From: Cocleimonas flava
GTDB taxonomy: Bacteria > Pseudomonadota > Gammaproteobacteria > Thiotrichales > Thiotrichaceae
Direction of reading: 5' to 3'
NCBI RefSeq assembly: GCF_004339015.1
Contig: NZ_SMFQ01000002.1
Span: forward strand, 683,351 to 747,350
DNA: 64,000 bases
Under the pieces are notes generated by a model that saw only the letters and a program-made list of their open reading frames with translations, did not search any database and was not told where the DNA came from. Positions 14,438-45,379 of this stretch are shown here, piece after piece (within the stretch, counting starts at the first letter, position 1; each line of letters begins with the position of its first letter). Both the position numbers and the translations under genes were made by a program.

Positions 14438-14511
14438 ATCTGCACTTGATCAAATGATTGATTACTTCATTGATTAAATGAAATAACAGAAATCTCCATT
14501 TCCATGTTTTG

Positions 14512-14537
14512 GGCCAGTTTTTACTGGCTCTTTTTTT
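14512..14537 (+). terminator. Rho-independent terminator of the DoxX gene
   Basis: GCCAGT/ACTGGC stem with a T-rich loop followed by T7, 75 bases after the DoxX stop. Confidence 0.85.
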
Positions 14538-14624: not shown

Positions 14625-14654
14625 TTGACAAATACAATACTTCATTACTATAGT
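14625..14654 (+). promoter_or_regulatory. sigma70-type promoter of arsR-arsM
   Basis: TTGACA (14625-14630), an 18-base spacer and TATAGT (14649-14654). The expected transcription start is about 14661, next to the arsR ATG at 14662, so the arsR mRNA could be leaderless. Confidence 0.65.
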
Positions 14655-14680
14655 TCGATATATGTCGAACTATAGTAATG
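14643..14680. promoter_or_regulatory. ArsR operator, perfect inverted repeat
   Basis: Arms of 15 bp (CATTACTATAGTTCG at 14643-14657 and its exact complement at 14666-14680) flank an 8-base centre. The palindrome covers the -10 box, the predicted transcription start and the first codons of arsR, ideal for autorepression that is relieved by arsenite. Confidence 0.8.
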
Positions 14681-15000
14681 ATATTCATAAACGCGCCGAA
14701 ATGTTTAAAGCTTTGGGCAATCCACATCGTCTGGCGATTTTTCAACGCCTGTCGACCTGCTGTGTTCCGGGAACAATTTGCTCGGTCGAAGATGCGATTC
14801 GTTTTACCGTGGGAGAACTGGGCGAAGATTTAGAAATAGCGCCTTCGACCGTCTCTCATCATCTCAAAGAATTGCTCCGGGCAGGCTTAATCCAGTCACG
14901 ACGCAATGGTAAAAACATCGAATGCTGGATTGAACCGCAACTGCTTGATCAGCTCTCCGATTTTTTTAAAGTGAATAGTGATATTAAACAGATGACTTGA
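14662..15000 (+). CDS. arsR: ArsR family transcriptional repressor
   Basis: A 112-residue winged-helix repressor. The core KALGNPHRLAIFQRL and the recognition region APSTVSHHLKELLRAGLI are typical ArsR/SmtB. Three cysteines in LSTCCVPGTICSVED are candidate As(III) ligands; their position differs from the classical ELCVCDL site. It precedes an arsenite methyltransferase gene, which indicates arsenic sensing. The ATG at 14662 lies in the centre of the operator with no ribosome site, so either the message is leaderless or translation begins at the in-frame ATG at 14701, which would give a shorter N-terminus starting MFKALGN. Confidence 0.9.
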   Translation: MSNYSNDIHKRAEMFKALGNPHRLAIFQRLSTCCVPGTICSVEDAIRFTVGELGEDLEIAPSTVSHHLKELLRAGLIQSRRNGKNIECWIEPQLLDQLSDFFKVNSDIKQMT

Positions 15001-15107
15001 AGCGCCCTGATAAAAACTGTCCCGCTTGAAGAACAACATTACTGAATAGTGTTTTGAATAGCATCTCGAATAATGTCTCGAACAAACGAACAACAAAAGG
15101 TGAAACC

Positions 15108-15968
15108 ATGAGTGAAAATGAAAATTGCTGTGCTCCAAGCTGTTGTGATGAAACACAGCCTGACACTGCGGCAAAAAATAATACTTTCCGCGAAAATGTC
15201 CGTGAAAAATACGCAAAGGTTGCCAACGCAGTCACCGAAGATGATTGCGATGCACCAGCAGCGAGTTGCTGTGGAACCTCCGATGATGAAGCCATAAACA
15301 CCCTAATCTCAACCCGTTTAGGTTATTCACAGGCTGAACTTAATGCCGTTCCTTCTGGTGCTGATATGGGATTAGGTTGTGGTAATCCGCAGGCGATTGC
15401 CGCACTGAAAGCTGGCGAGACGGTTGTCGACCTTGGTTCTGGCGGTGGTTTCGACTGTTTTCTGGCATCACCCGCTGTAAGCGAGACGGGGCACGTGATC
15501 GGCATCGATATGACTCCGGATATGATTAGCAAGGCACGCAATAATGCCAACACGGGTAAATTCAGCAATGTTGAATTTCGCCTGGGAGAAATCGAACACC
15601 TGCCAGTCGCCGATAATAGTGTTGATGTGATTATCTCTAACTGCGTGATCAATCTCTCACCCGACAAAGGTCAGGTATTCAAAGAAGCGTATCGTATTTT
15701 AAAAACAGGCGGCAGACTTGCCATATCTGATGTTGTCGCAACGATTGAACTACCAGAAGAAATGCGTAACGACCCACTACTAATAGCAGGCTGTATGGGC
15801 AATGCCGCACTTATTGATGATCTAACGAATGATCTGGAAGCAGCAGGCTTTAGGGATATTGCGATACAACCAAAAGATTCCTCTAAGGAATTTATTCAGG
15901 ACTGGGCACCGGGAATTGGTGTGGAAAATTATGTGGTTGCGGCAACCATTGAGGCGGTTAAAGTTTAA
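15108..15968 (+). CDS. arsM: arsenite S-adenosylmethionine methyltransferase ArsM
   Basis: A 286-residue SAM-dependent enzyme that methylates arsenite for detoxification. The SAM site is VVDLGSGGGFDCFLA and IGIDMTPDMI. The three catalytic cysteines of the ArsM family are visible in GLGCGNPQA, ISNCVINLSP and AGCMGNA. An extra N-terminal cysteine cluster (NCCAPSCC, then ASCCGT) may help capture As(III). The start at 15108 is chosen because AAAGGTG precedes it; an upstream in-frame TTG lacks this. It lies 107 bases after arsR under the same promoter. No arsenite efflux pump gene is present in the window. Confidence 0.93.
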   Translation: MSENENCCAPSCCDETQPDTAAKNNTFRENVREKYAKVANAVTEDDCDAPAASCCGTSDDEAINTLISTRLGYSQAELNAVPSGADMGLGCGNPQAIAALKAGETVVDLGSGGGFDCFLASPAVSETGHVIGIDMTPDMISKARNNANTGKFSNVEFRLGEIEHLPVADNSVDVIISNCVINLSPDKGQVFKEAYRILKTGGRLAISDVVATIELPEEMRNDPLLIAGCMGNAALIDDLTNDLEAAGFRDIAIQPKDSSKEFIQDWAPGIGVENYVVAATIEAVKV

Positions 15969-18130: not shown

Positions 18131-19051
18131 ATGCGTCGTCTTCCGCCACTCAATTCAATTCGAGCCTTTGAAGCCACCGCGCGTCACTTAAGTTTTTCAA
18201 AAGCGGCTGAGGAGCTCAACGTCACCCCTGGCGCGGTTAGCCAGCAAGTTAAAGTGCTGGAAGATTATCTAAATATCAAACTTTTCAAACGCAGAAATCG
18301 ACTGATACTGTTGACCGATGAAGCGCAAATCTGCCTGCCTTTACTGACACAAGGCTTAGATAATATGGCGCACGCCATCGATTTAATTCGTAAACAAAAC
18401 GACGATAAGCCGCTAACTATTACGGCATCTCCGACATTTACTTCGCGCTGGTTAATGCCGCGCCTGAGTAGCTTTCAGCACGAATTTCCCGATATAGATG
18501 TGAGAATTGATGCCAGTAATGATCTTGCTGATTTGATTAATGACGATATTGATGTTGGGATTCGTTTTGGCACTGGAGAATACCCGGGACTAGAAGCAGA
18601 CTATCTGTTCTCCCAGAGCGTAATCGCTGTCTGCAACCCTGAACTCCTAAAAAGAAAAGACAAACTGGAAACCCCTGAGGATCTTAAAAACCATACACTG
18701 CTGCATGCGCATGGCGATTATTTCTTCATCGACAACACGCATGTAGATTGGGAAATGTGGTTTGCTACCGTTGGTGCCAAAGGAATAGACGGCCGTCATG
18801 GCCTGCATTTTTCACAACATAATCTCTTAGCGGAAGCTGCTATCCGCGGACAAGGCGTTGCTCTGGTTGGTGATGTGGTGGTCAATGACGAGCTAAAAAC
18901 CGGGCAATTAGTAAAACTTTTTGAAGATACCGACATCCCACTTAAATTTTCTTATTATCTGATTTACCCCAACGTTAAATCTAATTTGCCGCGTGTAAAA
19001 ATATTTAGGCAATGGCTGTTAGATGAAGTAAAAAAAGTAAGGCGCAAATAA
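18131..19051 (+). CDS. LysR family regulator, GcvA-like
   Basis: A 306-residue LysR-type regulator. The N-terminal winged helix (LNSIRAFEATARHLSFSKAA, then VTPGAVSQQVKVLE) has the exact phrasing of GcvA/AmpR-type regulators. The C-terminal effector domain starts about residue 95 and contains TASPTFTSRWLMPRL. GcvA controls glycine cleavage genes in enterics. The next gene is a sodium:alanine/glycine symporter on the same strand 350 bases away, so a role in amino-acid uptake is possible but unproven. Confidence 0.88.
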   Translation: MRRLPPLNSIRAFEATARHLSFSKAAEELNVTPGAVSQQVKVLEDYLNIKLFKRRNRLILLTDEAQICLPLLTQGLDNMAHAIDLIRKQNDDKPLTITASPTFTSRWLMPRLSSFQHEFPDIDVRIDASNDLADLINDDIDVGIRFGTGEYPGLEADYLFSQSVIAVCNPELLKRKDKLETPEDLKNHTLLHAHGDYFFIDNTHVDWEMWFATVGAKGIDGRHGLHFSQHNLLAEAAIRGQGVALVGDVVVNDELKTGQLVKLFEDTDIPLKFSYYLIYPNVKSNLPRVKIFRQWLLDEVKKVRRK

Positions 19052-45308: not shown

Positions 45309-45340
45309 TAAAAACCCCCTCGTAAGTGGGGGGGGGTGTC
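45309..45340 (-). repeat. G6 element copy 20
   Basis: AAAACCCCCTCGTAAGTGGG then GGGGGG-TGTC: a nine-G run with a CCCCC partner. It starts two bases after the DUF4124 gene stop but is oriented for the converging minus-strand gor gene. Confidence 0.78.
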
Positions 45341-45350
45341 ATTAAGATAT

Positions 45351-45379
45351 AAAAAAGCCCCTGAATCAGGGGCTTTTTT
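45351..45379. terminator. bidirectional terminator
   Basis: AAAAAAGCCCC-TGAATCA-GGGGCTTTTTT palindrome between the converging DUF4124 and gor genes. Confidence 0.9.

Follow-up and report, generated by a model that had tools for sequence, protein, structure and literature searches.

The window analysed here, a stretch of 64,000 nucleotides from Cocleimonas flava, contains a gene for an ArsR/SmtB-family metalloregulator (arsR), which is followed by an arsenite methyltransferase gene (arsM) and preceded by a doxX-like gene (Table 1). The arsR product exceeds the cut-offs of three family models, NF033788 (66.1 bits, cut-off 55), PF12840 (44.5, cut-off 27) and PF01022 (38, cut-off 22), and its profile matches the CzrA, ArsR and SmtB chains. 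An AlphaFold model of the protein is composed of helices and a two-strand wing, with a mean pLDDT of 79.8. arsM is presumed to be co-transcribed with arsR. It is the next gene in the window and also lies 3' of arsR in 22 of 53 scanned loci that share the promoter arrangement described below, so that a linkage of this ArsR to arsenic genes is given. As the doxX-like gene is closed by a terminator-like stem, the arsR promoter should be insulated.

Table 1. Features of the arsR region in the window
Feature	Position	Strand	Remarks
Intrinsic-terminator-like stem, then T7	14511..14530	+	after the upstream doxX-like gene (DoxX PF07681)
-35 hexamer TTGACA	14625..14630	+	at least 4/6 at equivalent spacing in 52/56 loci with the arrangement
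Operator left perfect arm, 17 bp	14642..14658	+	core half-site TTCGA 14654-14658
-10 hexamer TATAGT	14649..14654	+	within left arm; equal 7-nt distance in 46/56 loci with the arrangement
6-nt spacer TATATG	14659..14664	+	contains start codon and dyad axis; start base inferred from promoter
arsR, ArsR/SmtB-family metalloregulator, 112 aa	14662..15000	+	NF033788, PF12840, PF01022
Operator right perfect arm, 17 bp	14665..14681	+	half-site TCGAA 14665-14669 in codons 2-3 (TCG AAC)
Shine-Dalgarno AAGGTG of arsM	15097..15102	+	6-base match
arsM, arsenite methyltransferase	15108..15968	+	NF008823 345.8 bits (cut-off 263)

The inverted repeat at the arsR start codon

The arsR start codon lies in an inverted repeat whose halves, 14642-14661 and 14662-14681, adjoin without a gap and form 19 of 20 pairs in the window sequence. 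This 40-base dyad is made up of two perfect 17-bp arms flanking TATATG, and its axis is observed between 14661 and 14662, directly 5' of the ATG. The initial annotation had reported a palindrome at 14643-14680 with arms of 15 bp; the palindrome is real, but its arms had been drawn slightly too short. That it spans the -10 element, the predicted transcription start and the arsR ATG agrees with our coordinates, and the promoter proposed there, TTGACA and TATAGT with an 18-nt spacer, was found as well and matches the consensus at 11 of 12 positions. The -10 hexamer is located inside the left arm of the dyad, and its end is 7 nt away from the ATG.

In 100 dinucleotide shuffles of the window the core pattern was not matched once, with up to three mismatches allowed. 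The extended operator site occurs a single time in the 4.49-Mb genome, and a looser operator pattern adds one further position with a single mismatch. Palindromes with perfect 17-bp arms are found elsewhere, one more in the window (at 45348, a terminator) and six in 400 kb of the same genome, of which 20 kb read N. Palindrome length alone was therefore rejected as evidence; in a genome where long palindromes are no rarity, it is position and conservation that carry the argument. A bidirectional terminator-like stem at 45351-45379 of the window has A and T runs on either side, with nine consecutive G (45328-45336) ahead of it.

Conservation of the arrangement among ArsR relatives

Relatives were collected by scanning species genomes of bacteria and archaea, and the best 80 of 189 stretches encoding a relative were taken. 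Together with the window, and with the duplicate copies L082-L085 excluded, they constitute a set of 81 non-redundant loci. The arrangement was defined as an in-frame ATG that occupies positions 9-11 of TTCGA-N6-TCGAA, up to four mismatches being allowed, and was observed in 56 of the 81 loci; the 25 loci without it are mostly more distant ArsR genes. Where the distance between the end of the -10 element and the ATG deviates from that in the window (Table 1), it amounts to 6 nt in six loci, 5 nt in two and 9 nt in two. The -10 element matches at least 4 of 6 positions in 52 of the 56 loci, and the -35 element reads exactly TTGACA in 27. Base -2 is A in 82% of these loci (weighted) and base -1 mostly T or C, consistent with a transcript that begins at -2 or with the A of the start codon. 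Information content is 1.4-2 bits in the half-sites and drops to about 0-0.1 bit upstream of -37. Operator conservation in the relatives extends to about 16 positions on either side of the axis, so that the long arms are partly a family trait.

A tree was calculated for 76 of the 81 proteins (five were omitted as too short) from 115 columns, with many forks remaining open. One supported clade (97/91) comprises 56 rows, 52 of them with the arrangement. Locus L046 also has it but is placed outside this clade, in an open region of the tree. The four clade rows without it are L043, which keeps an ATG at the equivalent place after a -10 element and has degenerate half-sites, and three loci from Verrucomicrobia (L037, L050, L051), in which the operator is shifted upstream and the ATG follows the right half-site. 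Thus, an exact merger of operator and ATG is not obligatory. In these three loci the start is still found near a -10-like sequence, and leaderless initiation may persist. NCBI phylum labels, available for 49 of the 56 loci with the arrangement, name ten phyla (Pseudomonadota, Myxococcota, Thermodesulfobacteriota, Bacillota, Chloroflexota, Gemmatimonadota, Elusimicrobiota, Armatimonadota, Acidobacteriota and Electryoneota), which is thus a minimum.

For later searches a profile (A1) of 49 clade members was used. Besides the window, 398 genomes of its phylum yielded 12 matches. Of these, 11 contain the exact core and an in-frame ATG, ten of the 11 being from a single genus; a weak match (L098, 8.3e-27) lacks the arrangement. 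Another 14 matches came from two further phyla, that of a Dehalococcoidia genome (301 genomes) and that of a Desulfomonile genome (297 genomes). Three of these were already known (L142, L145 and L149, identical to L026, L018 and L035), and seven are new strong matches, in all of which the operator contains the in-frame ATG (L143, L144, L146, L147, L148 and L151 scored by script, L150 by eye). The four weak ones (L152-L155, 3.1e-24 to 4.6e-23) have no in-frame operator ATG. In total, the arrangement was present in 18 of 18 new strong matches (E at most 1e-33) and in none of five weak ones. A search of viral contigs returned two loci, L099 with and L100 without the arrangement; 1011 records from plasmids, all below 60% identity, included no close member.

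Several individual loci were recorded in addition. L099 is a clade arsR with a complete start-codon operator on an IMG/VR contig classed as viral. One Dehalococcoidia genome (G463, contig C33) carries two clade arsR genes about 7 kb apart, at 18518 and 25472, both with the arrangement. A distant relative (L154 / L163) has a one-mismatch operator and a -10 element, with ACT in the place of the ATG and an ATG further downstream. The arsR-like gene of Gracilibacillus (L066) is truncated, has ATT instead of the operator ATG and gives the impression of a decayed copy.

Candidate As(III)-binding cysteines of the window ArsR, in the motif CCVPGTIC (Cys33, Cys34 and Cys40) and at Cys88, are invariant in the A1 set. 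The CC pair of this motif is absent from Bacillota members, and the cysteine site was matched to no characterised type. Two loci from Desulfomonile MAGs (L035 and L041) contain a clade arsR with an in-frame TGA at the equivalent of Cys40 (CPPGTR-TGA) and conserved sequence beyond it; in L035 the ATG is at 2986 and the TGA is codon 41. SelB was found above cut-off in both genomes, the only two checked for it, and these loci probably encode a selenocysteine-containing ArsR.

The half-site has not been derived from a footprint of this ArsR and binding by ArsR is inferred, which would leave room for a regulator other than ArsR acting on the dyad. Across phyla, however, the site goes with this clade of ArsR; it has a single occurrence in the genome and recurs 3' of arsR in many relatives, and we therefore reject a foreign regulator as very unlikely. 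The boxes of Pseudomonas putida ArsR1 and ArsR2 also speak against such a regulator, as they overlap the -10 element and contain similar halves, TATTCG(A/G); the available part of that report makes no mention of a leaderless start or of an overlap with the start codon (PMC7994332).

Start codon, predicted leaderless initiation and proposed autoregulation

The ATG at 14662 is preceded by no Shine-Dalgarno match of three or more bases, and among the 56 loci with the arrangement the match before the operator ATG is below three bases in 19, three bases in 35, four in one and five in one. The 3' end of the host 16S rRNA is standard, and Shine-Dalgarno matches of at least five bases precede 29% of the genes versus 11% in the control, a modest excess. 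A strong promoter 5-9 nt 5' of the candidate start was found for none of 273 long genes of the genome and, as a control, at one of 5460 random internal positions. arsR thus has two sequence features of a leaderless gene, a promoter predicted to set the transcription start at the start codon and the lack of a Shine-Dalgarno sequence, the 5' end of its mRNA being inferred. The initial annotation had placed the mRNA start at about 14661. The leaderless part of this claim is favoured by the comparison; the exact base is not, because 14661 is a T, and A14660 or A14662 is the likelier start.

As an alternative, it had been suggested that the true start is 14701 (Met14). The operator would then be genuine, the protein would be made from a leadered transcript and the ATG within the dyad would be incidental. 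There is indeed an ATG at 14701, and 23 of the 56 loci, including the window, have some ATG between codon 2 and the conserved F-K-A anchor. In the other 33, however, such an ATG is absent, in 27 there is no ATG, GTG or TTG between the operator ATG and the anchor, and the Shine-Dalgarno match of 14701 comprises merely three bases. The distance from the operator ATG to the anchor varies, being 15 codons in 39 loci, 16 in 13, 12 in two, and 18 and 19 in the remaining ones, and despite this the operator ATG is always in frame and the reading frame to the anchor is open, without stops, in all 56 loci. An in-frame ATG upstream of the operator ATG is present in 13 loci. Neither an upstream ATG or GTG nor a later start is available in 15 of the 56; if TTG is counted too, as it occurs in the -35 element itself, only six are without any other start candidate. 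A start at Met14 is accordingly disfavoured, and we reject it as unlikely.

With the operator ATG as the start codon, the right half of the operator is coding sequence, and the first codons of these genes deviate from the later ones. At codon 2, 52 of the 56 loci have TCG and three have TCA, whereas TCG accounts for 80 of the 352 remaining Ser codons of these genes. Codon 3 starts with AA in 54 of 56, though the residue is Asn (37) or Lys (17), and the third base of codon 4 is T in 54 of 56 over 11 different residues, versus 1058 of 5835 later codons. The biases for TCG at codon 2 and T at codon 4 persist at a GC content of at least 0.55. In 35 GC-rich genes, third-position G or C amounts to 3% at codon 4 and 0% at codon 5, and to 63-91% at codons 8-14. 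The figures for codons 2-3 are partly circular, since the 56 loci were chosen by their match to the core; codons 4-5 and the promoter do not belong to the core. Relatedness is not taken into account in the Fisher probabilities for the codon bias. At the DNA level, codons 2-5 of the relatives are under constraint. In the AlphaFold model helix 1 begins at residue 3 and the first ten residues are of low confidence, so that, on this model, the N-terminus of ArsR can plausibly tolerate residues dictated by the operator.

Taken together, it is very likely in our view that the 40-bp dyad is an autoregulatory operator of ArsR within a sigma-70-type promoter, that dyad axis, transcription start and arsR start codon coincide, and that the mRNA is leaderless, ArsR binding, the response to arsenite and the mRNA 5' end being inferred. 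One or more ArsR dimers on the dyad would cover the -10 element, the transcription start and the AUG, and RNA polymerase could not start; as all three are covered, repression should act at promoter binding or escape. Binding of As(III) to ArsR would free the operator, and transcription would then proceed from A14660 or A14662, giving a leader of 0-2 nt. arsR would be translated by leaderless initiation at the 5' AUG and its product made at a modest level, whereas arsM, with its own Shine-Dalgarno sequence, would be made at a higher level from the shared message. The earlier leaderless-operator reading, in which repression and translation start are merged, is strongly favoured by the comparison with the relatives, in the absence of transcript data.

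The same palindrome could in principle act as an RNA hairpin, either a terminator or a structure hiding the ribosome binding region, in a longer transcript coming from upstream. A stable hairpin is possible on both strands, and a terminator-like site on the minus strand is listed at the dyad. The left arm, however, lies upstream of the predicted start, and the normal mRNA would contain the right arm only; in addition, the upstream gene ends in its own terminator-like stem. What is conserved among the relatives is sequence, namely TTCGA/TCGAA together with the -35 and -10 elements. Most outer positions pair little beyond their column composition, with a modest excess at positions 6, 10 and 13 on either side of the axis, and in several loci the half-site TTCGA is changed to TTCTA without a compensating change on the right, which fits protein binding better than RNA pairing. 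An RNA hairpin was rejected on these grounds as barely credible.

Lambda cI and Tn1721 tetR belong to families unrelated to ArsR. They are named as leaderless repressors, and the available part of the source gives no start-codon operator conserved across phyla for either (PMC3017554). This report also describes the TetR-family repressor AcuR of Rhodobacter sphaeroides, for whose leaderless acuR-acuI-dddL operon 5' RACE placed the start exactly at the AUG. acuR has no convincing Shine-Dalgarno sequence, a promoter-overlapping inverted repeat represses the operon, mutations in the promoter and in the operator had the expected effects, and translation of the leaderless repressor gene is lower than that of the genes behind it (PMC3017554). 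As in the window, where the message is likewise predicted to be leaderless, the repressor is the first gene and the operator is at the promoter; with a leaderless arsR and a 6-base Shine-Dalgarno match for arsM, an AcuR-like division of labour is expected. In contrast, the AcuR operator is described as upstream of acuR, whereas in the window the ATG marks the axis of the operator, one half of which is coding. For the ArsR/SmtB protein TtSmtB of Thermus thermophilus HB27, the transcript start under arsenic is 3 nt 5' of the start codon; as far as the available part of the report goes, this start differs in having no consensus promoter boxes and a TTG start codon, and the palindrome of TtSmtB, known from footprints, lies over the -35 element of a different promoter (PMC5658604). 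The arsR gene of Cupriavidus metallidurans CH34 is among the leaderless regulator mRNAs found by transcription-start mapping, but the part available gives no operator position with respect to its ATG and does not show it to belong to the clade of the window ArsR (PMC7563307). Thus, leaderless autorepressors are already known (AcuR, TtSmtB), and the start-codon-centred ArsR operator is a new variant; no such operator was found in the literature searched, available in part, and this search did not extend to the second operator described below.

A second operator downstream of arsR in relatives

Of 74 clade loci examined for a second operator (O2; the one at the start codon is O1), 71 have a stop codon and enough sequence after arsR. 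TTCGA-N5..7-TCGAA with at most one mismatch is present within 140 nt of the arsR stop in 22 of these 71, where shuffles predict 0.28. The axis of O2 is situated 26-56 nt after the stop in, among others, L009, L010, L015, L017, L020, L023, L025-L028, L030 and L046, and also in L087, L143 and L146-L148. A next gene with a Shine-Dalgarno sequence usually follows. The window itself has no O2: the best match after its arsR has three mismatches, as by chance. In L027 / L164, the O2 in front of the next gene reads TTCGATATATGTCGAA and, like O1, includes an ATG.

For alignment 30 O2 sites were used, 24 from clade loci (at most two mismatches), two from outside the clade (L068, L070) and four chosen by a T-tract pattern; weighting left all 30 at full weight. 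A T-tract is held at -25 to -19 from the axis, with T in 97-100% at -21 to -19 and an abrupt end at -18. When the four sites chosen by T-tract are excluded, a run of five or more T whose last base is at -19 or -20 is observed in 19 of 26 sites, as compared to a mean of 0.27 and a largest value of 4 in 2000 rounds of shuffling, and in none of 56 O1 sites. The T-tract is found solely on the upstream side and is therefore tied to transcription direction, not to symmetric binding. The middle of the tract, -22, precedes the first base of the half-site by 14 nt, which is about the distance at which RNA polymerase is halted by a bound protein. At O2, a second promoter was rejected, as no -35 or -10 element is conserved, and so was an ordinary intrinsic terminator, as hairpins upstream of O2 do not exceed those of shuffled sequence (mean fold z -0.08; two of 26 sites below -2). 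The distant relative L154 / L163 also has a T-tract second operator after its gene.

We tentatively propose that this ArsR lineage uses one operator sequence twice, O1 as a merged promoter, operator and start codon and O2 as a repressor-roadblock terminator before the resistance genes; this may well be correct, though we stop just short of calling it probable. RNA polymerase leaving arsR would meet ArsR on O2 and halt with the RNA 3' end on the T-tract, the weak U-rich hybrid would release the RNA without a hairpin, and arsenite would remove the block. Other explanations are that a stiff T-tract aids ArsR binding or that O2 is a pause site without release. A strict scan for T-tract plus operator gave 6 among 398 genomes, with 14 hits of the reversed-pattern control, and 10 among 395 genomes, with four control hits; only eight of the 16 hits follow an ArsR-type gene. 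The T-tract pattern alone is thus weak evidence. At L159 an O2-type site comes after another kind of ORF, which is 366 codons long and has an ArsR-like helix-turn-helix motif, a hint that the device extends beyond this ArsR clade.

Overall, leaderless genes are usually catalogued per genome, whereas here one repressor lineage keeps a predicted leaderless start across ten phyla, and half of the ArsR operator is ArsR's own coding sequence. The clade therefore offers a natural series for the questions why repressors are so often leaderless and how far an operator dictates the N-terminus of a protein, and it bears on how gene finders should call such starts. The locked T-tract of O2, which comes from outside the window, is a more novel lead than O1. 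Eukaryotic Pol I terminators of the Reb1/TTF-I kind consist of a DNA-bound protein and a T-tract. If O2 terminates transcription, it would be a bacterial counterpart of these and a ligand-controlled terminator without RNA structure.
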